From Nocardioides conyzicola (GTDB lineage Bacteria > Actinomycetota > Actinomycetes > Propionibacteriales > Nocardioidaceae): a DNA stretch of 64,000 nt. Position numbers and translations under genes: made by a program. The stretch's first letter is position 1. Every line of letters begins with the position of its first letter. The notes beneath the pieces were generated by a model. That model searched no databases, had not been told where the DNA came from, and worked only from the letters and a program-made list of their open reading frames with translations. Location: positions 2,140,133-2,204,132 of the forward strand of contig NZ_BAABKM010000002.1 of NCBI RefSeq assembly GCF_039543825.1. Reading direction: 5' to 3'. Positions 18,429-52,227 of this stretch are shown here, piece after piece.

Positions 18429-19997
18429 ATGACGACCGGCGCCCCTGACCTGCCCACGACCATCGAGGTCGGCGTCGGTGCCGTGTCGTTCGACGACCTG
18501 CTCGCGGTGGCCCGGTACGGCGCCGCGGTGCGTCTTGCCGAGGACGCCCTGGCCGCGATCGACCGCGCCCGGGCGGTCGTCGAGGAGCTGGCCGGCGCGC
18601 CGACCCCGGCGTACGGGATCTCGACCGGCTTCGGCGCGCTCGCCACCCGGCACATCCCGACCGAGATGCGCGCCCAGCTCCAGCGGTCGCTGGTGCGCTC
18701 GCACGCGGCGGGCTCGGGTCCCGAGGTCGAGCGCGAGGTGGTGCGCGCGCTGATGCTGCTGCGCCTCTCGACGCTGGCGACCGGCCACACCGGCGTACGC
18801 CGGGAGACGGCCGAGCTGCTCGCCGGGCTGCTGTCCCACGGCATCACCCCGGTGGTGCGCGAGTACGGCTCGCTCGGGTGCTCCGGCGACCTCGCGCCGC
18901 TGTCGCACTGCGCCCTGGCGCTGATGGGCGAGGGCGAGGTGCGCGACGCGACCGGGACGTTGATGCCGGCGGCCGAGGCGCTCGCGGCGGCCGGGCTGAC
19001 GCCCGTCGAGCTGGCCGCCAAGGAGGGCCTGGCGCTGATCAACGGCACCGACGGCATGCTCGGCATGCTGGTGATGGCGATCGCCGACCTGCGGATGCTG
19101 CTCCGGACGGCGGACGTCGCGGCCGCCATGTCGGTCGAGGGCCAGCTCGCCACCGACCGGGTCTTCGCTGCCGAGCTGCAGGCGATCCGGCCGCACCCCG
19201 GGCAGGCGCTGTCGGCGGCCAACCTGGTCGCGCTGCTCGCCGGCTCGGGCGTCGTCGCGTCCCACCGCGGTCCCGACTGCAACCGGGTCCAGGACGCGTA
19301 CTCGTTGCGCTGCTCGCCCCAGGTCCAGGGTGCCGCCCGCGACACCGTCGAGCACGCCGCGATGGTGGCCGGCCGCGAGCTCGCGTCAGCGGTCGACAAC
19401 CCGGTGGTGCTGGCGGAGGACGGACGGGTCGAGTCCAACGGCAACTTCCACGGGGCGCCGGTCGCGTACGTGCTCGACTTCCTCGCGATCGTCGCCGCGG
19501 ACGTGGCGTCGATCAGCGAGCGGCGTACGGACCGCTTCCTCGACAAGGCCCGCAACCACGGACTCCCGCCGTTCCTCGCCCACGACCCGGGCGTCGACAG
19601 CGGCCACATGATCGCGCAGTACACCCAGGCCGCGATCGTCTCGGAGATGAAGCGTCTCGCGGTGCCGGCCTCGGTCGACTCGATCCCGTCGAGCGCCATG
19701 CAGGAGGACCACGTGTCGATGGGCTGGTCGGCCGCGCGCAAGCTGCGCCGCTCGGTCGACGGGTTGACCCGGGTCGTCGCGATCGAGGTGCTCACGGCCG
19801 CCCGCGCGCTCGACTTCCGGCGCCCGCTCGAGCCGTCGCCCGCGACCGGTGCCGTCGTCGCGCTGCTGCGCTCGTCCGGCATCGAGGGGCCGGGCCCCGA
19901 CCGCTACCTGTCGCCCGAGATCGAGGCTGCGGTCGCACTCGTCCGGACCGGCGCGGTGCTCGCAGCCGCGGAGTCGGTGGTCGGCGAGCTGGCCTAG
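18429..19997 (+). CDS. hutH: Histidine ammonia-lyase
   Basis: First step of histidine breakdown: L-histidine to trans-urocanate and ammonia, in the cytosol. It has 522 residues, normal for the family. Motifs are YGISTGFGALATRHI near 62-76 (catalytic Tyr), YGSLGCSGDLAPLSHCAL near 146, and PSSAMQEDHVSMGW near 420. The cofactor triad is Cys151-Ser152-Gly153 rather than Ala-Ser-Gly; the Streptomyces griseus enzyme also uses CSG, so this is a working MIO-type lyase. The ATG at 18429 is preferred; an ATG three codons upstream (18420) is possible. A 16-bp box shared with hutU lies 57 bases upstream. The stop overlaps the convergent neighbour by 4 bases. Confidence 0.95.
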   Translation: MTTGAPDLPTTIEVGVGAVSFDDLLAVARYGAAVRLAEDALAAIDRARAVVEELAGAPTPAYGISTGFGALATRHIPTEMRAQLQRSLVRSHAAGSGPEVEREVVRALMLLRLSTLATGHTGVRRETAELLAGLLSHGITPVVREYGSLGCSGDLAPLSHCALALMGEGEVRDATGTLMPAAEALAAAGLTPVELAAKEGLALINGTDGMLGMLVMAIADLRMLLRTADVAAAMSVEGQLATDRVFAAELQAIRPHPGQALSAANLVALLAGSGVVASHRGPDCNRVQDAYSLRCSPQVQGAARDTVEHAAMVAGRELASAVDNPVVLAEDGRVESNGNFHGAPVAYVLDFLAIVAADVASISERRTDRFLDKARNHGLPPFLAHDPGVDSGHMIAQYTQAAIVSEMKRLAVPASVDSIPSSAMQEDHVSMGWSAARKLRRSVDGLTRVVAIEVLTAARALDFRRPLEPSPATGAVVALLRSSGIEGPGPDRYLSPEIEAAVALVRTGAVLAAAESVVGELA

Positions 19998-22434: not shown

Positions 22435-24105
22435 ATGAACGACTCGCCCCGGAACCCCCGGTTGCCCATCCATGCCGCGCACGGCACCGAGCTGACCGCG
22501 AAGTCGTGGCAGACCGAGGCGCCGCTGCGGATGCTGATGAACAACCTCGACCCCGAGAACGCCGAGCGTCCCGAGGACCTCGTCGTGTACGGCGGCACCG
22601 GCAAGGCCGCGCGCAGCTGGGAGGCGTACGACGCCCTGGTGCGCACCCTCACCACGCTCGAGGACGACGAGACGATGCTCGTGCAGTCCGGCAAGCCGGT
22701 CGGCGTGATGCGCACCAGCCCCTGGGCGCCACGCGTCCTGATCGCCAACTCCAACCTGGTGGGCGACTGGGCCAACTGGGAGGAGTTCCGCCGGCTCGAG
22801 GACCTGGGGCTGACGATGTACGGCCAGATGACCGCCGGGTCCTGGATCTACATCGGCACCCAGGGGATCCTGCAGGGGACCTTCGAGACCTTCGCCGCCG
22901 TCGCCGACAAGCGGTTCGGCGGCACCCTGGCCGGCACCATCACCGTGACCGCCGGCCTCGGCGGCATGGGCGGGGCCCAGCCGCTCGCCGTCACCATGAA
23001 CGACGGCGTGGTGATCTGCATCGAGTGCGACCAGAGCCGCATCGCGCGCCGGATCGAGCACCGCTACCTCGACGTCCAGGCCGCGTCGCTGGAGGAGGCC
23101 GTGGAGATGGCCGTCGCCGCCCGCGACGAGCGCCGCCCGCTCTCCATCGGCGTCCTCGGCAACGCGGCGGAGATGCTGCCCGCGCTGCTCGACTCGGACG
23201 CCCCGATCGACATCGTCACCGACCAGACCTCGGCCCACGACCCGCTCTTCTACCTGCCGGTCGGCGTGCCGTTCGAGGAGTGGCAGGCGCAGCGCGAGGC
23301 CGACCCGGCCGGGTTCACCAAGGCCGCGCAGGCGTCGATGGCCACCCACGTCCGGGCGATGGTCGAGTTCCAGGACAAGGGCGCCGAGGTCTTCGACTAC
23401 GGCAACTCGATCCGCGACGAGGCCCGCAAGGGCGGATACGACCGCGCGTTCGACTTCCCCGGCTTCGTGCCGGCGTACATCCGACCCCTCTTCTGCGAGG
23501 GCAAGGGCCCCTTCCGCTGGGCCGCGCTGTCCGGCGACCCGGCGGACATCGCCGCCACGGACAAGGCGATCCTCGAGCTCTTCCCCGACAACGAGCGGCT
23601 GCGGAAGTGGATCACCATGGCGGGGGAGAAGGTCGCCTTCCAGGGTCTGCCCGCGCGCATCTGCTGGCTGGGGTACGGCGAGCGCCACCTCGCGGGGCTG
23701 AAGTTCAACGAGATGGTCGCGTCCGGCGAGCTCAAGGCGCCGATCGTGATCGGCCGCGACCACCTCGACTGCGGGTCGGTCGCCTCGCCGTACCGCGAGA
23801 CCGAGGCGATGCTCGACGGCTCCGACGCCATCGCGGACTGGGCGATCCTCAACGCCCTGGTCAACACGGCGTCCGGCGCGTCCTGGGTGTCCTTCCACCA
23901 CGGCGGCGGCGTCGGCATGGGCCGCTCGCTGCACGCCGGCCAGGTCTGCGTGGCCGACGGCAGCGAGCTCGCCGCCCAGAAGATCGAGCGGGTCCTCACC
24001 AACGACCCCGGCATGGGCGTGATCCGCCACGTCGACGCGGGCTACGACCGCGCGGTCGAGGTCGCCGAGGAGCGGGGGGTCCGGATCCCGGTGCGCGAGG
24101 GCTGA
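22435..24105 (+). CDS. hutU: Urocanate hydratase
   Basis: Second step of histidine catabolism: urocanate to 4-imidazolone-5-propionate, using tightly bound NAD+ as electrophile. It has 556 residues, the usual length. Conserved blocks are [66 protein letters not shown] and the nucleotide-binding [14 protein letters not shown]; the catalytic-region cysteine lies in the [16 protein letters not shown] segment ([14 protein letters not shown]). The ATG at 22435 has AGAGGAGC at ribosome-site distance. It is monocistronic: the next gene is convergent, with stops three bases apart. Confidence 0.96.
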
Positions 24106-24967: not shown

Positions 24968-25852
24968 TCAGTCCGGGTCGGAGCCCGGCTGGTGCAGCCA
25001 GGTGTCGACCTGGCCCTCGTAGGCCTCCAGCCGGTCCTGGGTACGCCGGGGGTGGGTGCTCGCGACGCCGTCCAGCAGCGCCATCGCCAGCACGACGGGT
25101 GCGGCGTGGGAGTCGAAGACCATGCCGGTGCCGACGGGAGCGACCAGCACGTGGTCGGCGTCGTCGGCGAAGTCGACGAACGGCGTGTCGACCAGCAGCA
25201 CCGTCGGGATGCCCAGGTCGCGCGCGTGCCGCAGCGCCCGGACGGTGGAGGCGGGGTAGCGCGGCATGGCGACCACGACCACCGCGGCGCCGCCGGCGTG
25301 GTGCATCTGGGTCAGGGCGTCGGTCGCGGTGTCGGCGTCGGTGACCAGCCGGACGTCGTCGACGATGCGCCGCGCGAAGTAGGCGGCGTACGACGCGAGC
25401 GCGGCCGAGGCGCGGATCCCGACGATGCCCAGGACCCGGGCGTCGGCGAGCGTGGCGACGGCGGCGGTCATGGCGGGCGAGCCCAGCGTGCCGCGCAGCG
25501 CGGACAGGTTGGCCTCGGCCTCGGCGACCGGGTCGGCCGGGGCGAGGTCGTGCGGCTCGGGGCCGCCGCCGAGGATCACCGTGCGCAGCGCGGCCCGGAA
25601 GTCGGCGTACGTCGCGAAGCCCAGCGTCGAGGCGAACCTGGTCACCGTCGGCTGGCTGACGCCGGCCCGGAGGGCGGCCTCGGACGTGGAGAGGAAGGCG
25701 GCATCGGGCATGGTGTCCATGAACGACTGCGCCACCCGGCGCTGGGTCGGCGACAGCCGGTGGCTGCGACACTGCTCCACCAGCCACTGGCGGGCAGCGG
25801 TCGCACTGCGGACCGGGTCCAAGCCGCCGTCCTCGCCGGCACGCTGCGTCAC
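24968..25852 (-). CDS. RpiR/MurR-family transcriptional regulator
   Basis: A 294-residue regulator. The N-terminal HTH (about 28-85) has LSPTQRRVAQSFMDTMPDAA ... TSEAALRAGVSQPTVTRFAS LGF, typical of RpiR. The C-terminal SIS domain (about 115-265) has VLGIVGIRASAALASYAAYF. SIS domains of this family bind phosphosugars or related small ligands. The GTG at 25852 is chosen because GAGGAGGG lies just upstream; the longer frame to 25906 reads through that site. It is divergent from the OCD/lyase operon, with 90 bases between starts, and probably controls it. A 6-bp inverted repeat (CGGCGC at 25880-25885, GCGCCG at 25893-25898) lies between them. Confidence 0.9.
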   Translation of the reverse strand: MTQRAGEDGGLDPVRSATAARQWLVEQCRSHRLSPTQRRVAQSFMDTMPDAAFLSTSEAALRAGVSQPTVTRFASTLGFATYADFRAALRTVILGGGPEPHDLAPADPVAEAEANLSALRGTLGSPAMTAAVATLADARVLGIVGIRASAALASYAAYFARRIVDDVRLVTDADTATDALTQMHHAGGAAVVVVAMPRYPASTVRALRHARDLGIPTVLLVDTPFVDFADDADHVLVAPVGTGMVFDSHAAPVVLAMALLDGVASTHPRRTQDRLEAYEGQVDTWLHQPGSDPD

Positions 25853-25942
25853 ACGTCCCTCCTCCAGCTCGGCCCACCTCGGCGCGACGGTTGCGCCGGG
25901 TCCCATCCTTGCTTGTCCCGCCCCCTACGAAATGAGGCATCC

Positions 25943-26965
25943 ATGACGACGAGCGGCGACGGCCTCTGGCTGCGCTTCGTCTCCGGCCCCGACATCGACG
26001 CCCTGGGCCTGACGCCCGCCGACATCGTGGCGGCCGCGTCCGAGGTGGTCGCCGCCCACGGTCGCGGCGAGACGGTGTTCGAGCCGCGCACCCACCTCGA
26101 GCCCGACAACGACGGCCGCGGTCACTTCAACGTGCTCCGCGGACACGTCTCCACCCTGGGCGACCACGGGGTCAGCGGCATCAAGGTCGTCGGCGACTTC
26201 GTGTCCAACTACGAGGTGGGGCTGCCGAGCGAGCTCGCGCTGCTGACGCTCTACGACCCGTGGACCGGCGTGCCCCGGGCCATCCTCGACGCCACGCTGA
26301 TCACCGAGGCCCGCACCGGTGCGATGACCGCGGTGGGCGCCCGGCACCTGGCCCGCCCGGACGCCAAGGTGCTCGGCCACATCGGCGCCCGCGGCACCGC
26401 GCACTCCAACATCGTGATGCTCGACGCGATGTTCGACCTCGACGAGATCCGGGTGACCAGCCGGCGGCCCGAGTCGCGCGAGGCGTTCGCCGAGCAGCTG
26501 CGCGCGGAGCTGTCCACGCCGGTCGTCGTCACCGAGTCGGCCGCCGAGACCATCGACGGCGCGGACATCGCCGTCGAGGCGACGCGTCTGCGCGAGCCGG
26601 CGTCGCTGATCACCGGCGACCTGCTCGCGCCGGGCTCCCTGCTGGTGCCCTACGGCACGATCAGCGCGCTCGACCCGGACCTGCTCGACGTCGTCGACAA
26701 GGTCGTCGTGGACGACTGGCGCGAGGCGCAGGCCGGCAGCTTCGGCGCCCTGCGTCCGCACCTGCGATCGGGTGCGCTGACCCGCGGCACCCTGCACGCG
26801 GAGCTCGGCGAGGTCGTGACCGGCGCACGACCGGGGCGCGAGAACGACCAGGAACGCATCCTCTTCTGGCACCGCGGCCTGTCGATCCTCGACGTCGCCG
26901 TCGGCCACCTCATCCTCGAGCGCGCGGAGGCCGCGGACCTCGGGACGATGGTGCGGTTCCGATGA
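25943..26965 (+). CDS. Ornithine cyclodeaminase/mu-crystallin family protein
   Basis: A 340-residue NAD(P)-dependent Rossmann enzyme. The family pattern is visible: VSGIKVVGDFVSNYEVGLPSE, LYDPWTGVPRAILDATLITEARTGAMTAVGARHLA and the nucleotide-binding LGHIGARGTAHSNIVML (a variant of GxGxQA, with Arg-Gly in place of the usual pair). Members include ornithine cyclodeaminase, alanine dehydrogenase and ketimine reductases. It is the first gene of a two-gene operon. Its stop overlaps the ATG of the next, MIO-less lyase. The specific substrate cannot be read; reduction or deamination of an imino or amino acid in the same pathway is inferred. Confidence 0.85.
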   Translation: MTTSGDGLWLRFVSGPDIDALGLTPADIVAAASEVVAAHGRGETVFEPRTHLEPDNDGRGHFNVLRGHVSTLGDHGVSGIKVVGDFVSNYEVGLPSELALLTLYDPWTGVPRAILDATLITEARTGAMTAVGARHLARPDAKVLGHIGARGTAHSNIVMLDAMFDLDEIRVTSRRPESREAFAEQLRAELSTPVVVTESAAETIDGADIAVEATRLREPASLITGDLLAPGSLLVPYGTISALDPDLLDVVDKVVVDDWREAQAGSFGALRPHLRSGALTRGTLHAELGEVVTGARPGRENDQERILFWHRGLSILDVAVGHLILERAEAADLGTMVRFR

Positions 26966-28416
26966 CCGTCGTCGTCGACGGGCCGGAGGACCTGGACCGC
27001 CGCGCCGTGCTCGCGGTCGCGCACGGCGCACCGGTGCGGCTGACCGACGCGCTGCTCGGGCGCTTGGCCGCGGGCCGCCGTACGGCGCTGGCGGCCCTGG
27101 CCGACGGGCCCGACGTCTACGGCGTCACGACCGGCATGGGGGCGCTGAGCGACACCCGGCTCGACGCCGCCGAGCAGGCCGACCACTCGCGGCGGCTGAT
27201 GCTGGCCCGGGCGGTCGGCGGTCCGCCGTACCTGTCGCGCACCGAGACCCGCGCGCTGCTCGCCGTGCGCCTGCGGATGTTCCTGGCCGGCGACGCGGCC
27301 GTGTCGGCCGGGCTGTGCTCGTGGCTGGTCACGCTCCTCGACCACGACGCGCTGCCGGACGTGCCGCGCACCGGCTCCGGGGCGGCGGGCGAGATCCTGC
27401 CGCTCGCCCATGCCTGGGGACACCTCGCCGGCGTGGGTCGGCCGCTCGACACCGGTGGCGCGGAGCCGCCGCGGCTCGGCCCCAAGGAGGGCATCGCGCT
27501 GCTCGCCGGCGTCCCGACGGCCACGGCGCTCGCGGCCCTGCGCGGCACCGACCTGGACCGGTTGGTCGCCCAGACCACGGTGGTCGCGGCCGCCGGGATC
27601 GTGCTGCTGGGCGCGAGCCGCGACCCCTACCTGCCGGCGGTCGCCCGCGGTGACGCCGAGCTCGCCGCGGTCCTCGCCGGTCTGGGGGAGTACGTCGGCC
27701 CGCTCGCCGAGCCGCGGCACCTGCAGGCCCCGGTCTCGGTCCGGGTCGCCGGGCCGGTGCTGGCCCACCTGCGGCGCGAGGAGGCCCGCCTGGGCGACGT
27801 GGTCGACCGGGCGCTCGCCGCCGTCGCCGACTCCCCGGCGTACCTCTCGACGGAGGACGGCGAGCGCTTCGTGGGGACGCCGAGCTTCCACGGGCTCGAC
27901 CACGCCGCGGGCTTCGACGCCGCGCGTGCGGCGGTGGTGCACGCGGCCGCGGTCGGCGCCGCCCGCCTGCACCGGCTCCTGGACCCGGCGGTGACCGGGC
28001 TCCCGGCCCAGCTCAGCGCCGACCCCGGGCCCCAGGCCGGGCTCACCCCCGTGCACAAGCGTGCGGTCGCCGTCGTCCACGAGGTCGCCGGCTGGCCCGC
28101 GACCCACGTGTCGCCGATGGAGACCTCGAACGGCCAGGAGGACGTGCAGACCTTCGCGCTCGAGGCCGCGGAACGACTGCGGCTCGCCCTCGAGGCCGCC
28201 GAGACGGTGCTGGCCTGCGAGCTGCTCGCGCTGCACCAGGCGCGGCTGCTGGCGCCGGAGCGGATGGGGGCGGCCCGGGGCGACCTGTCCCTGCTGCTCG
28301 ACCAGGTGTCCGAGGTGCTGCCCGCCGGGATCGAGGACCGGCCCTGGGGCGAGGACGTCGAGCGGCTCCGCGAGCTGCTCAGGAGCGGCTGGGCGCAGCG
28401 CCCGTCGAGCCCCTGA
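26962..28416 (+). CDS. Histidine/phenylalanine ammonia-lyase-fold protein lacking the MIO triad (paralog 1)
   Basis: A 484-residue member of the aromatic amino acid lyase superfamily. The fold and general acid-base landmarks are present: YGVTTGMGALSDT with Tyr53, GPKEGIALLAGVPTAT, and ETSNGQEDVQTFALEAAERL near 395, equivalent to the QEDHVSM helix. The cofactor segment reads TGSGAAGEILPLAHA. In alignment with GASGDLAPLA, the triad becomes Ala141-Ala142-Gly143, so the serine needed to form 4-methylideneimidazole-5-one is missing. Ergothionase, which removes trimethylamine from ergothioneine, is a known member without MIO. A betaine lyase is therefore likely. The ATG overlaps the OCD stop (ATGA). 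The 3' end overlaps the convergent lacI-type gene by 38 bases. Confidence 0.85.
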   Translation: MTVVVDGPEDLDRRAVLAVAHGAPVRLTDALLGRLAAGRRTALAALADGPDVYGVTTGMGALSDTRLDAAEQADHSRRLMLARAVGGPPYLSRTETRALLAVRLRMFLAGDAAVSAGLCSWLVTLLDHDALPDVPRTGSGAAGEILPLAHAWGHLAGVGRPLDTGGAEPPRLGPKEGIALLAGVPTATALAALRGTDLDRLVAQTTVVAAAGIVLLGASRDPYLPAVARGDAELAAVLAGLGEYVGPLAEPRHLQAPVSVRVAGPVLAHLRREEARLGDVVDRALAAVADSPAYLSTEDGERFVGTPSFHGLDHAAGFDAARAAVVHAAAVGAARLHRLLDPAVTGLPAQLSADPGPQAGLTPVHKRAVAVVHEVAGWPATHVSPMETSNGQEDVQTFALEAAERLRLALEAAETVLACELLALHQARLLAPERMGAARGDLSLLLDQVSEVLPAGIEDRPWGEDVERLRELLRSGWAQRPSSP

Positions 28417-29392
28417 CGACCAGGCTCGGCGAGATCGTGATGGTGCGCAGCGGCTGGTCGTCGTCGATGGCGGCCAGCAGCTGACCGACGGCCGCGTCGA
28501 CGACCGCACCGCGTCCCCAGTCCACCGTGGTCAGCCCCGGACCGGCGAGGTCGGCGAACTCGACGTCCTCGAAGCCCACCACGGACAGGTCCCCGGGCAC
28601 GTCGAGCCCGAGCTCCCGGGCGGCGCGCAGCACGCCGAACGCGAACGAGTCGGTCAGGCAGAACGCCGCCGTCGGCCGGTCCGGTCCGGTCAGCGCGGCC
28701 GCCAGGTGGTTGGTCATGGTCGCGGGGTCGGCGGTCGCGGGCGGGGTGCGGACCAGGTCGACGACCATGCCGCAGCGCTTGGCCTCGCGGGCCACCAGTC
28801 GCTCCGCCGGGCGGTCGGGCGTGCTGGGCCGCTCGGGCAGCACGGCGGCGATGCGGCGGTGGCCGAGCCCGGCGAGGTGGTCGAAGACGAGCGCGAAGCC
28901 GGCGGCGTTGTCGAAGACGACGGCGCCGGCCGAGGGCGCCTCGGCGAGGCGGTCGCCGATCGCGACCACGGGGAGCTGGCGGGCCAGGTCCTCCCACTGC
29001 GGGGCGAACGGGTCGAGCGGCGCGACCATCAGCCCGTCGGGGCGCTGGTCGCGGAGCCGGGCCAGCAGCGCCTCCTCGCGCTCCGGGTGGCCGTCGGCAT
29101 CGGCCACCAGGGAGTGCCGACCCTGCGCGAGCAGCGCCCGGGCGAGGTCGGCGGTGAGGGACTGCTGCCAGAGGTCGCGGGTGGAGCCGCACAGCACGGC
29201 GACGGTGCGTGAACGTCCGCTCGCGAGCGCGGAGGCGATCGGGTTGATCTGGTAGCCGAGGGCCGTCGCGGCCTCCTGCACTCGCCGGACCGTGTCGTCC
29301 GAGCCGCGCTCGCCCCGGAGCGCGTACGAGACGGTCGCCGGCGCGAGGCCGACGGCGTCCGCGACGTCCTGGAGCGTGGGGCGCTTAGGCAC
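28379..29392 (-). CDS. LacI-family transcriptional regulator
   Basis: A 337-residue repressor. The N-terminal HTH is PTLQDVADAVGLAPATVSYALRG (landmark region 5-27) and the hinge helix includes NPIASALASGRSRTVAVL near 50-67. The periplasmic-binding-like effector domain covers 60-330, with VAIGDRLAE and SVVGFEDVEFADLAGPGLTTV typical. It starts at a GTG. It is divergent from the amidohydrolase/CDO operon, whose start codon is overlapped by a perfect palindrome TGAAGCGCTTCA, a LacI-type operator. Control of that operon is therefore well supported. Ligand unknown. Confidence 0.93.
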   Translation of the reverse strand: MPKRPTLQDVADAVGLAPATVSYALRGERGSDDTVRRVQEAATALGYQINPIASALASGRSRTVAVLCGSTRDLWQQSLTADLARALLAQGRHSLVADADGHPEREEALLARLRDQRPDGLMVAPLDPFAPQWEDLARQLPVVAIGDRLAEAPSAGAVVFDNAAGFALVFDHLAGLGHRRIAAVLPERPSTPDRPAERLVAREAKRCGMVVDLVRTPPATADPATMTNHLAAALTGPDRPTAAFCLTDSFAFGVLRAARELGLDVPGDLSVVGFEDVEFADLAGPGLTTVDWGRGAVVDAAVGQLLAAIDDDQPLRTITISPSLVVRGSTGAAPSRS

Positions 29393-29437
29393 GGGTCGAG
29401 CATATGGCGCGCCGCCGACACTCCTCGGCGTGTGGGC

Positions 29438-29466
29438 TTGCGCTTCGTTAAGTGCAGTGGTTTAGT
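29438..29466 (+). promoter_or_regulatory. Promoter of the amidohydrolase/CDO operon (leaderless)
   Basis: TTGCGC (29438-29443), a 17-base spacer and TTTAGT (29461-29466), followed by 7 bases and the ATG at 29474. Transcription would begin at or within a few bases of the start codon, giving a leaderless mRNA. There is no ribosome site upstream of this ATG, which agrees. Confidence 0.55.
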
Positions 29467-29473
29467 AGGTAAT

Positions 29474-30436
29474 ATGAAGCGCTTCACTTCCCCGGAGAGC
29501 GCCGGCGGCGGGACCCAGCTGGCGGTCGGACCCGTCGCTGACTGCCACCAGCACCTCTGGCCCGAGGCCTTCATCGACGAGCTCCGTCGCCGCTCCCACG
29601 GCCCCCGGCTCCGGGGCTGGGAGCTGCTCCTGGACGGCGAGCCGGCGTACGCCGTCGACCCGGCCGCCCACGACCTCGCCGCCCGGCGCGCGATCGACGC
29701 CGCCGACGGCATCGACCTCACCGTGCTCTCGCTGTCCAGCCCCCTCGGCATCGAGACGATGGCCCCCGACGAGGCCGCGCCCCTGCTCGACGCCTGGCAC
29801 GACCTCGCCGACGACCTGGAGCGCCGCGACGTCGACGGGTACGCCGTCTGGGCGGCCGTCAACGTCGTCGAGCCCGACCTGGCGGCCCTCGCGACGACGC
29901 TGCGGCACCCGCGCGTGCGCGGCCTGCAGGTGCCCGCGACCGCCCTCCTCGACCCGGCCGCCCTGGAGCGGCTGGCGCCGGTGCTCGCCGTCGTGCAGGC
30001 GGCCGACCTGCCGGTGCTCGTGCACCCCGGCCCGGCGACCGCGTCCGACCTGGTCCCCGGCTGGTGGCCCGCGCTCACGTCGTACACCGCGCAGCTCACG
30101 GCGGCCTGGTTCGCCTGGCACGTCGCCGGCCGCGCGCTGCTGCCCCAGCTGCGGATCGCGTTCGTCGGCCTCGCCGGTCTCGCACCGCTCCACCACGAGC
30201 GCCTCGGTCAGCGCGGCGGAGCGCTCGGGCCGATCGACCCGCTCGTGCACTACGAGACCTCGTCGTACGGCATGCGCGCGATCGACGCCCTGATCCGCGT
30301 CGTCGGCATCGACCCGATCGTGCACGGGTCCGACCGGCCCTACGCCCTCCCCACCGATCCCGGACTCGGCGATGCCTTCAGCCACGCCTTGTTCGTCGCC
30401 AATCCCGCCCACCTCATGAACGGAGCACCGCGATGA
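29474..30436 (+). CDS. Amidohydrolase-2 family protein
   Basis: A 320-residue TIM-barrel metal enzyme of the amidohydrolase/ACMSD-like family. The N-terminal ligand pair is DCHQHLWPE near 23 (HxH); LVHPGPA near 181 gives the next His, and HGSDRPYALP near 285 gives the Asp. The family contains hydrolases and decarboxylases of ring compounds. The gene is first in an operon: its stop overlaps the ATG of the thiol-dioxygenase-like gene (ATGA). Its promoter is under a LacI operator. A role in opening or decarboxylating the ring product of the neighbouring lyases is inference. Confidence 0.82.
   Translation: MKRFTSPESAGGGTQLAVGPVADCHQHLWPEAFIDELRRRSHGPRLRGWELLLDGEPAYAVDPAAHDLAARRAIDAADGIDLTVLSLSSPLGIETMAPDEAAPLLDAWHDLADDLERRDVDGYAVWAAVNVVEPDLAALATTLRHPRVRGLQVPATALLDPAALERLAPVLAVVQAADLPVLVHPGPATASDLVPGWWPALTSYTAQLTAAWFAWHVAGRALLPQLRIAFVGLAGLAPLHHERLGQRGGALGPIDPLVHYETSSYGMRAIDALIRVVGIDPIVHGSDRPYALPTDPGLGDAFSHALFVANPAHLMNGAPR
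29475..29486. promoter_or_regulatory. LacI-type operator overlapping a start codon
   Basis: TGAAGCGCTTCA, a perfect 12-bp palindrome with the central CG typical of LacI/GalR-family operators. It begins at the second base of the ATG at 29474, at about +1 to +12 of the predicted transcript. Repressor bound here would block initiation. The LacI-type gene starts 83 bases away. Confidence 0.75.
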
Positions 30437-30981
30437 CCCTCGCCCCTGCACAGCCCTCGGCCGTCGCCGCGTGTGCGCTCACCGCGGACCAGCTGCCGTC
30501 GCTGCCCGGCCGCGTCCTCGACCCGCAGGAGCTGCTCGCCTGGGTGCGCGAGCTGGCCGCCGACCCGGAGCTCTGGGAGCAGCACGTCCGGCACGACACC
30601 GACGGCCGGCACTTCGTGTCGCTCTACCGCGACGCCGACATCGACGTCTGGCTGCTGTGCTGGAACACCGTCGACGACACCGGCTGGCACGACCACGACA
30701 CGTCGTCCGGCGCGGTCGCGGTCACCCAGGGCGCGGTCGTCGAGAACCGGCCGCGCCTCGGTGGCGAGCCGGCGACCCGCACGGTGGGCGCGGGCCGGTC
30801 GTTCGCGTTCGGCCCTGACCACATCCACCGGATGGCGGGCGCCATCGACGGCTCGGTCTCGATCCACGCCTACTCGCCGCCGCTGTGGCGGATGGGTCAG
30901 TACTCCATCAGCTCGTCCGGCGTGATGCGCCGCTACTCCGTCTCGTACGCCGACGAGCTCCGCCCGCTGGTGGGCGACTAG
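30433..30981 (+). CDS. Cysteine-dioxygenase-family cupin (thiol dioxygenase-like)
   Basis: A 182-residue cupin of the cysteine dioxygenase type I superfamily. The iron ligands are readable as GWHDHDTSSGAVAVTQG near 93 (HxH) and FGPDHIHRMAG near 120-130 (third His). YSPPLWRMGQY near 150 matches the C-terminal CDO tyrosine region. These enzymes use Fe(II) and O2 to oxidise thiols to sulfinates. It is co-translated with the amidohydrolase. In this setting it hints that the pathway's substrate carries sulfur. The family also includes 3-mercaptopropionate and other thiol dioxygenases, so cysteine itself need not be the substrate. Confidence 0.82.
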   Translation: MTLAPAQPSAVAACALTADQLPSLPGRVLDPQELLAWVRELAADPELWEQHVRHDTDGRHFVSLYRDADIDVWLLCWNTVDDTGWHDHDTSSGAVAVTQGAVVENRPRLGGEPATRTVGAGRSFAFGPDHIHRMAGAIDGSVSIHAYSPPLWRMGQYSISSSGVMRRYSVSYADELRPLVGD

Positions 30982-32436
30982 CTACAGGCTGCGCAGCAGC
31001 TCCACGGCCGCCTCGAGCTCCGGACCGACCACGTGGTCGCGCCGTACGTCGGGCAGCGCCGCGTCGGCGCGCGCGAAGAGGTCGGCCGCCGGGCAGTCGA
31101 CGACCCGGCCGGGGTCGAGGCGCAGGGCGCGCACCGCAGCGACCAGCTCGCAGGCGAGCAGCTCGGGCAGCAGCCCCAGGAGGTCGTGGCTCGCCCAGGC
31201 GGCCTGCGTCGAGTGGCTCGCGTGCTCCTCGAGGCCGAGCGACAGGACGGCACGCTGGGCGGTGACCGGAGCGGCGGTCGCCCGGATGCGCGCCAGCAGG
31301 TCGGCCGCGACGTACTCGACGATCATCAGCCCCGAGCTGCCCGCCGGGCCGTCGGCGAGGAAGCTCGGCAGCCCGGTCAGGTCGGGCTCGAGCAGCGCCG
31401 CGAGCCGCGCCGTCGACAGGGTGAGGGCCGGTACGGCGGCGGCGCGCACGGCGTCGAGCGCGGCCGCGAGCCGCTGGGTCAGGAACTGGCCGTGGTGCAA
31501 CGTGGTGCCGTCGACGACCAGGGGGTTCTCCGCCGCGGCGCCGATCTCGGCGGCGAGGGCCCGGTCGGCGGCGCCCAGCGCCTCCTCCCACGGGCCGTGG
31601 ACCTGCGGCACGGCGCGCAGCCCGAACGGGTCCTGGAGACGGGCGGACGCACGCGCCGGCCCGGTGAGCAGCGAGGTCAGGCGGGCGGCCACCTCGGCGG
31701 CGTACGGGTCGTCCTTGGCGGCGTGCACCCGCGGGTCGTAGGCCTGCAGGGAGCCCCGGAGGGCGAGGTGGGACAGCGCGGCGGTCTGCTCAGCGGCCCG
31801 GGCCAGCGCGGCGAGGCCGGTCACGGCGATCGAGCCGACGGCGGCGGTCAGGGCGTTGCTGCTCGCGAACGGGAGGGCGTCGCCGTCGGCGACGGGGGCG
31901 GCCGCGGCGGACCCGTGCCGCCACGGCAGCTCGCCGACCAGGGTGAGGCCCAGCTCGGAGAGCGCGGTCAGGTCGGCGGTGCCGATGCCGCCGTACGTGT
32001 GGAGGCGAGGCACGGCGCCGACGGCGAGCGCCTCGGCCAACGTCTGCACCAGCGCCGGGTCGACCCCGGAGCCGCCGCGGAGCAGCTGGTGGAGGCGCAC
32101 GAGCATGGTCCCGCGGGCGACCTCGTCGCTCAGCTCGGGCCCGAAGGCGCCGGCGTGGCTGCGCCACAGTCTGAGCGTGTGGCTGTCGTTGTCGGCGGGC
32201 TCTGCTTCGATGGTGACGTGACGCAACGCGCCGACGCCCGTGGTCAGGCCGTAGACCGCGCCCTCGGCACGTGCGGAGTCCAGGCCCGCGCGCGCCCGAC
32301 GGACCGGGGCCAGCGCGTCGCCGTCGTACTCCTCGAGCCGCACCTCGATCCCGGCGGTGCCGGGGTCGGCCGCGTAGGCCGCGACGTCGGCCGGGCGCAG
32401 GCCCGGCGAGGCGATGTGCCGCGTGGTCGACGTCAT
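30982..32436 (-). CDS. Histidine/phenylalanine ammonia-lyase-fold protein lacking the MIO triad (paralog 2)
   Basis: A 484-residue member of the aromatic amino acid lyase superfamily, equal in length to paralog 1 but clearly divergent from it. VYGLTTGVGALRHVTIE gives the catalytic Tyr62. GLEEHASHSTQAAWASHDLL is equivalent to the C-terminal acidic helix. The cofactor region reads YGGIGTADLTALSELGLTLVGE. Against GVGASGDLAPL this replaces Ala-Ser-Gly by Thr153-Ala154 and deletes one residue before Asp155-Leu, so MIO cannot form. It is convergent with the CDO-like gene (stops abut) and divergent from the betaine-type ABC operon 101 bases away. A MIO-independent elimination on an amino-acid betaine is inferred. 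Confidence 0.82.
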   Translation of the reverse strand: MTSTTRHIASPGLRPADVAAYAADPGTAGIEVRLEEYDGDALAPVRRARAGLDSARAEGAVYGLTTGVGALRHVTIEAEPADNDSHTLRLWRSHAGAFGPELSDEVARGTMLVRLHQLLRGGSGVDPALVQTLAEALAVGAVPRLHTYGGIGTADLTALSELGLTLVGELPWRHGSAAAAPVADGDALPFASSNALTAAVGSIAVTGLAALARAAEQTAALSHLALRGSLQAYDPRVHAAKDDPYAAEVAARLTSLLTGPARASARLQDPFGLRAVPQVHGPWEEALGAADRALAAEIGAAAENPLVVDGTTLHHGQFLTQRLAAALDAVRAAAVPALTLSTARLAALLEPDLTGLPSFLADGPAGSSGLMIVEYVAADLLARIRATAAPVTAQRAVLSLGLEEHASHSTQAAWASHDLLGLLPELLACELVAAVRALRLDPGRVVDCPAADLFARADAALPDVRRDHVVGPELEAAVELLRSL

Positions 32437-32537
32437 GGCCGCATCCTATTCAGCGGACTCGCTAAGTCGAATAACTTCATTCACATAGACTCCTTCGACA
32501 TGCTCCTCAACATCAGCCCCTCGGCAGGAGGACACCG
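32437..32537. promoter_or_regulatory. AT-richer divergent promoter region between lyase paralog 2 and the ABC operon
   Basis: These 101 bases are noticeably AT-richer than their surroundings (for example TAAGTCGAATAACTTCATTC at 32463-32482), as expected for back-to-back promoters. It contains AAGT-N6-ACTT (32464-32477). The plus-strand gene has a strong ribosome site GGCAGGAGG before its GTG. I cannot place the -10 and -35 elements with confidence. Confidence 0.4.
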
Positions 32538-33584
32538 GTGATCGAGTTCGACGACGTCACGAAGAGGTACCCCGACGGCACCGTTGCCGTCGGCAACCTC
32601 TCCATGACCATCCCCACCGGCGCCATCACGGTGCTCGTGGGTCCCTCCGGGTGCGGCAAGACCACGTCGCTGCGGATGATCAACCGGATGATCGACCCGA
32701 CCTCGGGCACGATCCGGATCGACGGCCAGGACGTCACGTCCCAGGACCCGGCGCTGCTGCGCCGCTCGATCGGCTACGTCATCCAGCACGCCGGGCTCTT
32801 CCCGCACCGCACCGTGGTCGACAACGTCGCGACGGTGCCCGTGCTCAACGGCCTCCCGCGCAAGCAGGCCCGGGCCCAGGCCTACGAGCTGCTCGAGCGC
32901 GTCGGCCTCACCGCCGGCATGGCCGACCGCTACCCGGTCCAGCTCTCCGGCGGTCAGCAGCAGCGGGTCGGAGTCGCCCGCGCGCTCGCGGCGGACCCGC
33001 CGGTGATGCTGATGGACGAGCCGTTCTCGGCCGTCGACCCGGTGGTCCGGGAAGGCCTGCAGAAGGAGTTCCTGCGGCTGCAGGGCGAGCTCGGCAAGAC
33101 CATCGTGATGGTCACCCACGACATCGACGAGGCCATCAAGCTCGGCGACCACGTCGCGGTCTTCGCCGAGGGCGGCCGCCTGGCCCAGCTGTCGACGCCC
33201 GAGGACCTGCTGTCGCAGCCCGCCGACGACTTCGTCGCCGGCTTCGTGGGCCGCGACCGCGGCTACCGCGGCCTGTCCTTCGCGGGCTCGGCCGACCTCG
33301 CCGTCGAGCCGGTCACCGCGGAGGTGGAGGGCCTGCGCCTCTCGCTGGACGACGCCGGCCGGCCGCTGGGCTGGGCCGGGTCGGGCGGCCTCCTCCCGAC
33401 GGAGGGCACCTACCACGTCGGCGACAGCCTGCGGGTGGTCACCGACCTGACGCTGCTGTCGCCCGCCGGCGCCGCCGTCCGCGTCGACGCCGACGGCCGG
33501 GCCGACGGGATCGTGCGGCAGAGCGCGCTCTCGGCGTACCTCCGGGAGCGCCAGCTCGGCCGTCTGCGGTCGGCGGAGGCGTGA
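32538..33584 (+). CDS. Quaternary-amine (betaine-type) ABC transporter ATP-binding protein
   Basis: A 348-residue ATPase of the OpuCA/ProV group. Walker A is GPSGCGKTT near 35, signature LSGGQQQRVGVARAL near 136, Walker B VMLMDEPFSAVDP near 157, and the H-loop VTHDIDEA near 192. The C-terminal 100 residues replace the usual tandem CBS domains with a degenerate region, so osmotic gating by CBS may be absent. It starts at GTG with GGCAGGAGG upstream. It is first of a four-gene operon with two permeases and a binding lipoprotein, and divergent from MIO-less lyase 2. Confidence 0.93.
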   Translation: MIEFDDVTKRYPDGTVAVGNLSMTIPTGAITVLVGPSGCGKTTSLRMINRMIDPTSGTIRIDGQDVTSQDPALLRRSIGYVIQHAGLFPHRTVVDNVATVPVLNGLPRKQARAQAYELLERVGLTAGMADRYPVQLSGGQQQRVGVARALAADPPVMLMDEPFSAVDPVVREGLQKEFLRLQGELGKTIVMVTHDIDEAIKLGDHVAVFAEGGRLAQLSTPEDLLSQPADDFVAGFVGRDRGYRGLSFAGSADLAVEPVTAEVEGLRLSLDDAGRPLGWAGSGGLLPTEGTYHVGDSLRVVTDLTLLSPAGAAVRVDADGRADGIVRQSALSAYLRERQLGRLRSAEA

Positions 33585-33585
33585 G

Positions 33586-34254
33586 GTGAACTTCTTCGAG
33601 GAGGTCCGCGAGTACCTCCGGATCAACCACGAGACGGTCGTCCAGGCCCTGGTCCAGCACATCTGGCTGGCGCTGCTGCCGGTGGCGATCGCCTTCGCCC
33701 TGTCGCTGCCGATCGGCTGGGCCGTGGCACGCTTCGGCTGGGTCCGCCACCCGGTCCTGACGCTGAGCAGCATCATCTACACGGTGCCGTCCTTGGCACT
33801 CCTGCTCCTGCTCCCGGGCATCCTGCACACCAGCTTCCTCGACCCGCTCAACGTGGTCATCGCGCTCACGCTCTACAGCCTCGCCCTGCTGGTGCGGGCG
33901 GTCGTCGACGGGCTGGAGTCGATCGACGACCAGGTCGTCCAGTCCGCCACCGCCATGGGCTACCGGCCGGCCCGGCGCTGGTTCACCGTCGACCTCCCGC
34001 TGGCGCTGCCCGTCATCCTGTCCGGGCTCCGGGTCGCCACGGTCGCCAACATCAGCATGGTGTCGGTGGCAGCGCTGATCGGGATCGGCGGCCTCGGTCA
34101 GCTCTTCACCCGCGGCTTCCAGTTGCAGTTCTACGCGCCTCCGATCGCCATCGGCCTGGTGCTCTCGGTGCTGCTCGCCCTGATCGCCGACACGATCATC
34201 GTGCTGGTGCAGCGCGTCGCCACTCCGTGGACCCGGGCGGGAGGTGCCCGATGA
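33586..34254 (+). CDS. Betaine-type ABC transporter permease 1
   Basis: A 222-residue inner-membrane permease with about six hydrophobic segments, of the OpuCB/OpuCD group. The cytoplasmic EAA-like loop is DDQVVQSATAMGYRPARRWFTVDLPLALP near 125-153, and GIGGLGQLFTRG follows. It starts with GTG one base after the ATPase stop. Its stop overlaps the ATG of permease 2 (ATGA). Two different permeases with one ATPase fit the heteromeric OpuC arrangement. Confidence 0.92.
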   Translation: MNFFEEVREYLRINHETVVQALVQHIWLALLPVAIAFALSLPIGWAVARFGWVRHPVLTLSSIIYTVPSLALLLLLPGILHTSFLDPLNVVIALTLYSLALLVRAVVDGLESIDDQVVQSATAMGYRPARRWFTVDLPLALPVILSGLRVATVANISMVSVAALIGIGGLGQLFTRGFQLQFYAPPIAIGLVLSVLLALIADTIIVLVQRVATPWTRAGGAR

Positions 34255-34994
34255 ACGCCAGCACCTTCGACTTCCTCTTCAACGGGTCCTACTGGACGTG
34301 GAGCAACTACGACAGCTTCCCGCACCGGATCGTCGAGCACCTGCAGTACTCCATGGTCGCCCTGGCGATCGCCTTCGTGGTGGCGTTCCCGATCGGGCTG
34401 CTCATCGGCCACACCAACCGCGGCTCCTTCTTCGCGATCAACGTCGGCAACGCCGGCCGCGCGCTGCCGACCCTGGGCGTGCTGATGCTGGTGCTCGCGC
34501 TGGTCGGCACCGGCCTGGTCCCGGTCACGGTCGCGCTGGTGATCCTGGCGATCCCGCCAATCCTGACGACGACGTACGCCGGGATCCGCTCGGTCTCGGA
34601 CGCGTCGGTCGACGCCGCCCGGGGGGTCGGCATGCGGGAGTGGCAGATCGTCAAGGACGTCGAGGTGCCGATCGCCCTCCCGATCATCTTCGGCGGGATC
34701 CGCAACGCGACGCTCCAGGTGATCTCGACCGCGACGATCGCCGGGTACGTCGGGTTGGGCGGTCTCGGCCGCTACCTGTTCGACGGCCTCGCGCTCTACG
34801 ACTACCCGCGGATCGTCGCGGGCTCCGTGCTGGTCGCGCTGCTGGCGGTGATCATCGACCTGGTGCTCGGCCTGGTGCAGCGCCTGGTCGTCTCACCCGG
34901 CGTCGACGGCCGCGCCGTCAAGGGCCGGCGTCGGACAGCCGCGACCGGCCCCGCGCTGTCCGTGACCACCGAGGAGGCCGCCCGACCTGCCTGA
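34251..34994 (+). CDS. Betaine-type ABC transporter permease 2
   Basis: A 247-residue permease, homologous to permease 1 but with an N-terminal extension (FNGSYWTWSNYDSFPHRIVE). The EAA loop is SDASVDAARGVGMREWQIVKD and the final block is GLGGLGRYLFDGLALYD. The ATG at 34251 has GGGAGGTG at ribosome-site distance inside permease 1. The binding protein starts 46 bases downstream. Confidence 0.92.
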   Translation: MNASTFDFLFNGSYWTWSNYDSFPHRIVEHLQYSMVALAIAFVVAFPIGLLIGHTNRGSFFAINVGNAGRALPTLGVLMLVLALVGTGLVPVTVALVILAIPPILTTTYAGIRSVSDASVDAARGVGMREWQIVKDVEVPIALPIIFGGIRNATLQVISTATIAGYVGLGGLGRYLFDGLALYDYPRIVAGSVLVALLAVIIDLVLGLVQRLVVSPGVDGRAVKGRRRTAATGPALSVTTEEAARPA

Positions 34995-35040
34995 CTCCGC
35001 ACCACCACCATCCGCACCGCACACACCCGAGAGGTCCACC

Positions 35041-35976
35041 ATGTTCCGACGCAAGCGATTGCCCGTACTCGTCAGCCTGGCCGCCGTCGCGGCCTTCGCG
35101 CTGGCCGGTTGCGGGTCCGACGACAGCAAGGCCGACGACCCCTTCTCCAACGGCGGGGGTGACAAGGGCACCATCGTGATCGGCTCCGCGAACTTCCCGG
35201 AGAGCGAGCTGCTCATGCAGATGTACGCCCAGACCCTGGAGGCCGCCGGCGCCAAGGTGGAGACCAAGCCCAACATCGGCGCCCGCGAGATCTACATGAA
35301 GGCCTTCGAGTCCGGCGACATCGACCTGCTGCCGGAGTACAACGGCGCGCTGCTGTCCTACCTGTCGCCCGACGGCGTCCCGGAGGGCACGACCTCCCCG
35401 GAGGACGTCTACGCCGCGCTGCAGAAGGTGCTGCCCGACGGCAGCGAGACCCTCCCGCAGTCGGCCGCCGAGGACAAGGACACGCTGACGGTCACCAAGG
35501 AGACCGCCGACAAGTACAGCCTGTCCACGATCGAGGACCTGAAGCCGGTCGCCGACAAGCTCGTCGTGGGCGCCGGTGCGGAGTGGCGTGAGCGCTACCA
35601 GGGCCTGATCGGCCTCAAGGAGCTGTACGGCGTGGAGTTCAAGGAGTTCAAGCCGCTCGACTCCGGCGGCCCGCTCACCATCGCCGCGCTGAAGGACGGC
35701 TCCATCGACGTCGGCAACGTCTTCTCGACCGACTCGGCGATCTCGACCAACGACTGGGTGGTGCTCGGCGACCCGAAGAACCTCTACACGTCGCAGAACA
35801 TCGTCCCGCTGATCCAGTCGGACGTCGTGACCCCTGAGGTGACCAAGGCGCTCAACGCCCTCTCCGAGGCGCTGACCACCGAGAACCTCACCGAGGCGCT
35901 CGCCAAGGTGCAGGTCGACAAGCAGGACCCGGTCACCGTCGCGAAGGACTTCCTCGCGGCCAACAACCTGAGCTGA
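35041..35976 (+). CDS. Betaine-type ABC transporter substrate-binding lipoprotein
   Basis: A 311-residue lipoprotein of the OpuAC/OpuCC group. The signal ends in the lipobox LAGCG with Cys23. IVIGSANFPESELLMQMYAQ near 46-65 and DIDLLPEYNGALLSYL near 100 are the family signatures. Known ligands in this family are glycine betaine, carnitine, choline and, for EgtU-type proteins, ergothioneine. The ligand of this copy cannot be read from sequence alone. A strong hairpin terminator follows at 35991-36028. Confidence 0.92.
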   Translation: MFRRKRLPVLVSLAAVAAFALAGCGSDDSKADDPFSNGGGDKGTIVIGSANFPESELLMQMYAQTLEAAGAKVETKPNIGAREIYMKAFESGDIDLLPEYNGALLSYLSPDGVPEGTTSPEDVYAALQKVLPDGSETLPQSAAEDKDTLTVTKETADKYSLSTIEDLKPVADKLVVGAGAEWRERYQGLIGLKELYGVEFKEFKPLDSGGPLTIAALKDGSIDVGNVFSTDSAISTNDWVVLGDPKNLYTSQNIVPLIQSDVVTPEVTKALNALSEALTTENLTEALAKVQVDKQDPVTVAKDFLAANNLS

Positions 35977-51024: not shown

Positions 51025-52187
51025 CGAGCACCGTGATCACCCACATCGGCGAGCTGGTCACCAACGACCCGGACGCCACGGACCTCCTCGGCGCCATCGA
51101 GCACGCGGCGCTCGTCATCGAGGGCACGAAGGTCGCCTGGGTCGGCCCGGCCGCCGACGCCCCGCCGGCCGACGAGCAGTACGACGCCGGCGGCCGCGCC
51201 GTCCTCCCCGGTTTCGTCGACTCCCACTCGCACCTGGTCTTCGCCGGCGACCGGTCCCAGGAGTTCGCGGCCCGGATGACCGGCACGCCGTACGCCGCGG
51301 GCGGCATCCGCACCACCGTCGCCGCCACCCGCGCCGCCACCGACGAGCAGCTCACCGCCCACGTCGCCCGCCTGGTCGCGGAGATGCGCCGGCAGGGCAC
51401 CACCACCGTCGAGATCAAGAGCGGCTACGGCCTGACCGTGCGGGACGAGGCCCGGAGCCTCGCCGTCGCGCGGCAGTTCACCGAGGAGACGACGTTCCTC
51501 GGCGCCCACGTCGTGCCGGAGGGAGATCCGGGGGACTACGTCGACCTCGTCACCGGCCCCATGCTCGACGCGGCCAAGGAGCACGCCCGCTGGATCGACG
51601 TCTTCTGCGAGCAGGGCGCCTTCGACGAGGACCAGGCGCGCGCGATCCTCGCCGCCGGTGCCGCTGCCGGGCTGCGCGGGCGGCTGCACGCCAACCAGCT
51701 GACCTACGGCCCGGGCGTCCGCCTGGCCGCCGAGCTCGGCCTGGTCGCGGTCGACCACTGCACCTACCTCGCCGACGAGGACGTCGCCGCGCTGCGCGAC
51801 TCCGGCACCATCGCGACCCTGCTGCCCGGTGTCGAGTTCTCGACCAAGCAGCCCTACCCCGACGCGCGGCGGCTGATCGACGCCGGCGTGACGGTGGCGC
51901 TCGCCTCCGACTGCAACCCGGGCTCCTGCTTCACCAGCTCGCTGCCGCTCTGCATCGCCCTCGCCGTCCGCGAGATGGGCATGTCGCCCGCCGAGGCCGT
52001 CCACGCCGCGACGTACGTCGGCGCCCAGGCCCTCGACCGCGACGACGTCGGCACCCTCACCGTCGGCAGTCGCGCCGACCTGATGGTGCTCGACGCCCCG
52101 AGCCACGTGCACCTCGCCTACCGCCCCGGCGTCCCGCTCGTCGCCGCCACCTGGGTCGGTGGCCGCCCCGTCGTCACCGGAGGGTGA
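51021..52187 (+). CDS. hutI: Imidazolonepropionase
   Basis: A 388-residue amidohydrolase converting 4-imidazolone-5-propionate to N-formimidoyl-L-glutamate, the third step of histidine catabolism. Motifs: [17 protein letters not shown] near 61 (metal HxH), [12 protein letters not shown] near 130, [22 protein letters not shown] near 225, VDHCTYL and [17 protein letters not shown] near 294 (Asp ligand), all as in HutI. The ATG overlaps the hutF stop (ATGA). It is last in the AllC-like/hutF/hutI operon. Confidence 0.96.
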
Positions 52188-52227
52188 GCCGCGTGGGCAC
52201 CGATGAGTTTCGCCTGCTCCACCGATC

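Follow-up and report, generated by a model that had tools for sequence, protein, structure and literature searches.

A predicted ergothioneine-salvage island with two cofactor-free histidine ammonia-lyase relatives in Nocardioides conyzicola

Introduction

A 64,000-nucleotide stretch of Nocardioides conyzicola DNA (contig NZ_BAABKM010000002.1; hereafter the window) encodes, at 24968-35976, two relatives of histidine ammonia-lyase (HAL) that lack the triad forming the methylidene-imidazolone (MIO) cofactor, together with a cysteine dioxygenase (CDO)-like cupin and an importer of the Opu type, and the question raised by this locus is which compound such a set of genes would consume. We propose that the substrate is very probably of the ergothioneine type, and it seems moderately probable that the whole constitutes an ergothioneine-salvage island with two branches, both ending at urocanate. 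In aerobic bacteria the full route from ergothioneine, or from the oxidised forms that arise from it, down to glutamate, sulfite and trimethylamine is only partly described, and for every step that follows ergothioneine dioxygenase (ETDO) the island offers a candidate gene. A preliminary description of the same DNA had predicted a pathway for betaines of the ergothioneine or hercynine type draining into hutU, with two cofactor-less lyases acting on two related betaines; the first proposal is supported here by ETDO orthology and by hut-linked gene arrangements, the second as a prediction, and all the genes that it named were located.

Results

The dioxygenase core

The nearest solved relative of the CDO-like protein is ETDO (PDB 8qfl-8qfr), at about 64% identity and far above the cysteine dioxygenases. 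The three histidine ligands and the active-site tyrosine (His86, His88, His145 and Tyr147) are kept in 24 of 24 ETDO-family sequences. Judged by sequence and structural model, the cupin is an orthologue of ETDO, whose reaction it is predicted to share. The earlier view of a thiol-oxidising cupin thus stands as to family and is sharpened as to identity, while the label “undescribed” has to be withdrawn for the core of the system, since ETDO is already described.

Nalivaiko, Vasseur and Seebeck are said to have described, in 2024, ETDO together with an ergothioneine-sulfinate hydrolase yielding hercynine, and the window's overlapping amidohydrolase-ETDO pair is presumably the same pair. The two have in common the CDO fold, the three histidine ligands at the identity given above, and the overlapping amidohydrolase gene; the island differs in adding an importer, two MIO-less lyases, an enzyme of the ornithine cyclodeaminase (OCD) family and hut genes. 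Pairing of the two genes is conserved in 76 of 78 named genome loci, which were selected by ETDO similarity alone and scored by bit-score cut-offs, with loci cut by contig ends scored as missing. A close solved relative of the amidohydrolase was looked for and none was found; the protein matches Pfam PF04909, and this match and the conserved pairing make it a candidate ergothioneine-sulfinate hydrolase. Two Nocardioides loci (L046 and L062) carry two ETDO copies each, and L062 also has two amidohydrolases, with one set beside an M48-type gene.

Gene order of the island

Reading frames and Pfam profiles define eleven genes in 24968-35976:

24968-25906, minus strand: RpiR-type regulator (PF01418 and PF01380), divergent to the OCD gene
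25943-26965, plus strand: OCD/mu-crystallin-family enzyme (PF02423, E 1.4e-51), proposed reductive desulfonase
26962-28416, plus strand: lyase 1, HAL family lacking the MIO triad and with Arg in place of His83 (PF00221, E 2.2e-70), proposed trimethylamine-lyase for S-oxidised ergothioneine
28379-29392, minus strand: LacI-type regulator (PF00356 and PF13377), divergent to the amidohydrolase-CDO pair
29474-30436, plus strand: amidohydrolase, candidate ergothioneine-sulfinate hydrolase (PF04909, E 2.6e-09)
30433-30981, plus strand: CDO-like ETDO orthologue (by sequence and model)
30982-32436, minus strand: lyase 2, HAL family without the MIO triad, imidazole-recognition residues present, in a clade of its own (PF00221, E 3.9e-90)
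32538-33584, plus strand: Opu-type importer ATPase (reading frame; homologues in 35 of 78 ETDO loci)
33586-34254, plus strand: importer permease 1 (reading frame; homologues in 36 of 78)
34227-34994, plus strand: importer permease 2 (reading frame; homologues in 34 of 78)
35041-35976, plus strand: OpuC-type binding lipoprotein (PF04069, E 8.1e-54)

The OCD and lyase 1 genes overlap by 4 bp, as do those for the amidohydrolase and ETDO; lyase 1 and LacI overlap tail to tail by 38 bp, and the tail ends of ETDO and lyase 2 adjoin directly. Three groupings had been read as three transcription units; the groupings hold and are better described as three divergent pairs, RpiR|OCD-lyase 1, LacI|amidohydrolase-ETDO and lyase 2|importer.

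Conservation across Actinobacteria

Gene co-occurrence, which the preliminary description had named as a check, was examined in the 78 ETDO loci. Beyond ETDO (78) and the amidohydrolase (76), they contain LacI in 60, lyase 2 in 49, the two permeases in 36 and 34, the importer ATPase in 35, the binding protein in 34, OCD in 31, RpiR and lyase 1 in 29 each and HutU in 11. OCD and lyase 1 occur jointly in 28, and all eight of OCD, lyase 1, LacI, amidohydrolase, CDO, lyase 2, importer ATPase and binding protein in 23. The grouping recurs in several actinobacterial genera and exceeds chance. Large gene sets are found in Nocardioides, Actinoplanes/Paractinoplanes, Arthrobacter, Labedella and Frigoribacterium, while many Streptosporangiaceae-type loci hold the smaller set lyase 2-LacI-amidohydrolase-CDO. 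OCD and lyase 1 stand by an importer, apart from ETDO and lyase 2, in genome G061 and are likewise found by the importer in several genomes of the phylum-wide set. The notion of one eight-gene system is thereby upheld as to co-occurrence and corrected as to unity, the two modules being able to separate.

Among 147 Propionibacteriales genomes, ETDO (E <1e-50) is present in 49, lyase 1 in 37 and lyase 2 in 44. Every lyase 1 genome has ETDO (37/37), as do 43 of the 44 with lyase 2, and 12 of the 49 ETDO genomes lack lyase 1. Because 38 of the 49 belong to one genus (g7), these counts are not independent events.

Lyase 2 and the route to urocanate

Eight HutH, 33 lyase 1 and 48 lyase 2 sequences, window proteins included, were aligned after excluding lyases outside 400-600 residues or below 150 bits; residue numbers are those of PpHAL, placed on the window's HutH by motif. 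The Cys-Ser-Gly triad is present in all eight HutH and absent from all 33 lyase 1 and all 48 lyase 2 sequences, in agreement with the two triad-less paralogs of the earlier account. The lyase 2 triad loop is shorter by one residue (48/48), and equivalents of Tyr53, His83, Gln277, Arg283, Glu414 and His416 are present in 48 of 48; the Tyr280 position holds Phe in 30 and Tyr in 18, and the Asn195 column holds Ser throughout. A substrate that is a quaternary-ammonium analogue of histidine would permit loss of the cofactor while the residues for histidine recognition are kept; this pattern suggests a urocanate-forming role, and we consider it likely that lyase 2 is a hercynine trimethylamine-lyase.

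Gene context is consistent with this assignment. An Arthrobacter plasmid (L262) carries the run importer ATPase-permease-permease-binding protein-HutU-lyase-2-like gene, with HutF and M20 on the opposite strand; ETDO is absent from the 19 kb read, and the plasmid HutU is 71% identical to that of the window. A lyase-2-like gene also lies divergent to importer genes, with no ETDO nearby, in L305 and L306 (no ATPase was called in L306 by our gene-call script), and HutU follows the importer in two Frigoribacterium genomes (L080 and L081). In Labedella phragmitis the genes form a single run, RpiR|OCD-lyase 1|LacI|amidohydrolase-ETDO|lyase 2|importer-HutU-M20-HutF-HutI-YeiH. The 3.5-Mb Labedella assembly has only two PF00221 genes, both inside this run (best E 1.7e-90); the triad motif was not found in the loci of these two genes, nor was a cofactor-type HutH found in the assembly. 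Within a 59-genome set that includes Labedella, 28 genomes are urocanase-positive, of which 27 contain a gene matching PF00221 with an E value of 5.7e-129 or lower, Labedella being the sole exception; the triad motif was present in all 27 of these high-scoring HutH loci, part of the 28 of 28 loci checked. Labedella phragmitis provides a sharp prediction because its hut run has no HutH.

PF00221 is represented three times in the source genome (4.96 Mb, 7 contigs), by HutH and by the two lyases, and hut genes flank the island in the window:

18429-19997, plus strand: HutH, canonical neighbouring hut gene (best of the genome's three PF00221 genes, E 9.4e-185; triad Cys-Ser-Gly)
22435-24105, plus strand: HutU, urocanase to which urocanate from the island is predicted to pass (sole PF01175 match of the genome)
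48506-49669, plus strand: M20 hydrolase (aligned span, tblastn with the Labedella protein, 51% identity)
49681-50961, plus strand: HutF (aligned span, likewise, 54%)
51021-52193, plus strand: HutI (aligned span, likewise, 63%)

The triad of the window's HutH reads Cys-Ser-Gly and not Ala-Ser-Gly, as in all eight HutH compared. An EgtD-type methyltransferase had no match in the source genome, which makes ergothioneine synthesis by the usual route improbable in this organism.

The OCD-lyase 1 module

Lyase 1 differs from lyase 2 at the recognition positions: His83 is replaced by Arg in 33 of 33 sequences, Tyr280 by Val in 27 and Leu in 6, and Asn195 by Glu in 27, Ala in 4 and Gln in 1, with Asn in 1; Arg283 is retained in 33/33 and Glu414 in 32/33. 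Its partner matches the PF02423 profile, the nearest solved relative being an archaeal alanine dehydrogenase (2.6e-51) and the others imine or ketimine reductases. A 22-sequence OCD alignment has a mean column identity of 71%, and the family is sharply bounded, with 84 plasmid records returned at 1e-60 by a Martelella query and again 84 at 1e-45 by the window query; among the 45 of these 84 matches listed for the latter, relatives are 52-58% identical to the window protein. One lyase 1 homologue (P0042, 789 residues) contains both PF00221 and PF02423, which suggests that the two genes are fused there or that their reading frames were joined.

OCD occurs in 11 of 296 Actinomycetota genomes, the source genome included. 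At the other ten loci, several of them cut by contig ends, an importer is adjacent in eight and a MIO-less lyase with Arg83 in seven, while the stretch contains a hut gene in five (L287, L288, L289, L291 and L292), a CDO-like gene in four and an amidohydrolase in one. Thirteen plasmid OCD loci from Alpha- and Betaproteobacteria, Streptomyces and Rhodococcus were hand-picked for diversity, mostly from match lists in which Rhizobium prevailed (69 of 84 records); two of them (L263 and L269) are near-identical, and genes in unannotated loci were called with a simple codon-usage script. Ten of the thirteen have a MIO-less lyase (with Arg83 in eight), two a canonical HutH (L267 and L273), and in one no lyase was found (L270). 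Other neighbours are an SsuA/PhnD-type binding protein (8), an Opu-type importer (at least 5), HutC (5), HutU (2), a YeiH-type “putative sulfate exporter” (3) and paired luciferase-like monooxygenase (LLM) flavin oxidoreductases (3); CDO-like and amidohydrolase genes accompany OCD in a single locus, that of Streptomyces chartreusis. YeiH comes after the importer in the actinobacterial loci L068, L071, L075, L078 and L308 and is also the last gene of the Labedella run. A plasmid search with lyase 1 at E 1e-20 gave no matches, and one with ETDO returned a single Nonomuraea record. OCD-lyase 1 is a separate module, also present in Proteobacteria.

On a Comamonadaceae plasmid (L267, 4879-17496), OCD is one gene of a complete hut operon that also encodes canonical HutH, HutU, HutD, HutI, HutF and HutG, together with an SsuA/PhnD-type binding protein; a MIO-less lyase was not found in this stretch.

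Taken together, hut genes, Opu-type importers and genes for oxidised sulfur beside OCD-lyase 1 point to an imidazole, a quaternary amine and oxidised sulfur in one compound, from which we infer ergothioneine sulfonate or sulfinate; for the action of OCD-lyase 1 on S-oxidised ergothioneine we regard the chances as evenly balanced. Alternatively, the pair could handle some other betaine with an anionic side chain and no sulfur, sharing with the rest of the island only the importer and the neighbourhood. Arg at the His83 position in all 33 lyase 1 sequences would suit any anionic side group, Proteobacteria have OCD-lyase pairs without ETDO, and the nearest solved OCD relatives use amino or imino acids. 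Yet HutC or HutU lies by OCD in five of the thirteen plasmid loci and YeiH, SsuA-type or LLM genes by many, and the 37 lyase-1-bearing Propionibacteriales genomes all have ETDO, though mostly within one genus, so that a sulfur-free substrate appears unlikely.

A two-branch pathway and its weak points

The pathway that we favour would begin with import of betaines, namely ergothioneine and its oxidised forms. In one branch, ETDO would turn ergothioneine into ergothioneine sulfinate, which the amidohydrolase would hydrolyse to hercynine and sulfite; lyase 2 would then hold the imidazole in the HAL manner and release trimethylamine by elimination, leaving urocanate, an electrophilic cofactor being unnecessary because the quaternary amine is already a leaving group. 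In the other, more conjectural branch, lyase 1 might remove trimethylamine from the sulfonate or sulfinate of ergothioneine, its Arg at the imidazole-binding His position holding the anionic sulfur group, and OCD might add hydride at C2 of 2-sulfo-urocanate, with sulfite leaving and urocanate remaining. Urocanate from both would pass to HutU, HutI and HutF, and RpiR and LacI would likely control the branches. Joining these elements gives a bolder proposition, which we offer tentatively and regard as somewhat less likely than not: that OCD is an NAD(P)H-dependent imidazole-2-sulfonate desulfonase and lyase 2 a new clade of cofactor-free HAL relatives making urocanate from hercynine, so that a bacterium of the Labedella phragmitis type has a complete hut pathway without histidine ammonia-lyase, fed only by ergothioneine-type betaines. 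If the predicted pathway is right, a part of the database entries named “histidine ammonia-lyase” would act on betaines as trimethylamine-lyases; among the matches listed, the two lyases have at least 1471 and at least 1620 relatives with E values of 1e-30 or lower, a share of MIO-bearing enzymes included.

Several observations weigh against this pathway. The ETDO and hydrolase chemistry follows what Nalivaiko 2024 is reported to have described. Lyase 2 is missing from six of the 49 Propionibacteriales genomes that have ETDO; in the dominant genus g7 its proteins are only 43-46% identical and, wherever both genes have coordinates on one contig, encoded about 12-20 kb away from ETDO. The Labedella assembly is a draft whose completeness is unstated, and the two Frigoribacterium genomes with HutU after the importer have a triad-bearing HutH elsewhere. 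For the second branch, no lyase was found beside OCD in L287-L289 (Actinomycetota) or in plasmid locus L270; the Polaromonas and Paraburkholderia lyases, two of the ten MIO-less OCD neighbours on plasmids, keep His83; and YeiH, HutC and LLM genes each occur in a minority of loci, the sulfur theme of OCD deriving from family annotations of its neighbours. A hut operon with canonical HutH contains OCD in L267, and in L273 one lies nearby; what OCD acts on may therefore be no lyase product, for instance an imidazole sulfonate of other origin.

Neither lyase groups with the solved ergothionase

The preliminary description had likened the lyases to ergothionase, and one of them could be a true ergothionase converting ergothioneine to thiourocanate, with ETDO as a parallel route. 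Both are HAL-family proteins without the triad, like ergothionase, and the solved Treponema denticola enzyme (PDB 6s7j/6s7q) shares with lyase 2 the equivalents of Tyr53, His83, Arg283 and Glu414 (alignment of 6s7j). In a 47-row tree, however, 6s7j falls in a group with ten OCD-associated lyases, of which nine are proteobacterial and one is from Streptomyces (support 96/93). Lyase 2 forms a single branch of 17 rows that includes Arthrobacter, Kribbella-type and G077 relatives (100/100), and lyase 1 a separate branch of 10 rows (100/99), which places both outside the ergothionase clade. The root of the tree serves the drawing only, and the number of cofactor losses is thus not settled by it. 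Urocanase is encoded once in each of 14 of 14 cluster-bearing genomes checked, the source genome also having one, which leaves no second, thiourocanate-type hydratase of that family, and the lyase-2-like gene of the Arthrobacter plasmid is coupled to a HutU close to that of the window. The direct route from ergothioneine to thiourocanate is therefore disfavoured, and a true ergothionase among the two lyases is improbable.

G077, the single Propionibacteriales genome with lyase 2 and without ETDO, carries together HutI-like, divergent urocanase-like (36% to HutU) and lyase-2-like genes (L226, 5154-10584), possibly a thiourocanate-type variant.

The importer

An importer of the EgtU type had also been suggested. 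According to the EgtU study (PMC9732360), G244 is invariant in EgtU and F293 occurs in all EgtUs, E375 of EgtUC binds the imidazole, with R379 in a salt bridge to it, and glycine-betaine-specific ProX has Phe and Tyr at the G244 and F293 positions. The window importer is of the same Opu-type ATP-binding cassette family and, by alignment, retains the Glu375 and Arg379 equivalents in 18 of 18 binding proteins. It differs in having Phe and Tyr at the G244 and F293 equivalents and Ala, Asn, Ala, Asp and Phe at the K242, I243, Y337, Y341 and Y419 positions, each in 18/18; since these pocket positions are unmatched, the importer is not of the EgtU type. Glycine betaine may still be a ligand, but that the importer is an osmoprotectant system for glycine betaine or choline and a mere neighbour, as the ProX-like Phe and Tyr would suggest, has little probability, given that it is found next to ETDO, to OCD-lyase 1 or to lyase-2-like genes in arrangements that differ from one another (amidohydrolase-CDO-importer in L044, L058 and L077; OCD-lyase 1-importer in L220, L290 and L296; importer-HutU-lyase 2 in L262) and keeps the Glu375 and Arg379 equivalents, though Lmo1422 likewise has a glutamate at the former place.

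Relation to known systems

ETDO has already been described. Literature searches, which covered mostly titles and the opening parts of abstracts and few of the subscription journals, turned up no account of a hercynine lyase (the role predicted for lyase 2), of a desulfonase role for OCD or of the combined island, an absence that weighs little. A catabolic pathway for ergothioneine sulfonate has been published and reportedly reconstituted (Yan, Huang, Zhang 2022, a title cited in PMC13405746); it possibly involves the chemistry proposed here for OCD and lyase 1. With ergothionase the two lyases share the MIO-less HAL fold family and the predicted elimination of trimethylamine; they differ in clade, in the predicted substrates (hercynine and S-oxidised ergothioneine) and in that no second, thiourocanate-type urocanase is seen. 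The lower pathway of HutU, HutI and HutF is common to the island and the hut pathway, but entry into the former is predicted to occur by trimethylamine elimination and not by HutH; no cofactor-type HutH was found in the Labedella assembly.

Further MIO-less lyases of the HAL family were noticed in Microbacteriaceae-type genomes (L309, 7526-10284; L311, 7342-10108; L312, 8170-11212; L313, 6837-9612). Each is immediately preceded by an LLM flavin-dependent oxidoreductase gene (32-34% to the Rhizobium LLM protein), an arrangement that may represent a third module.

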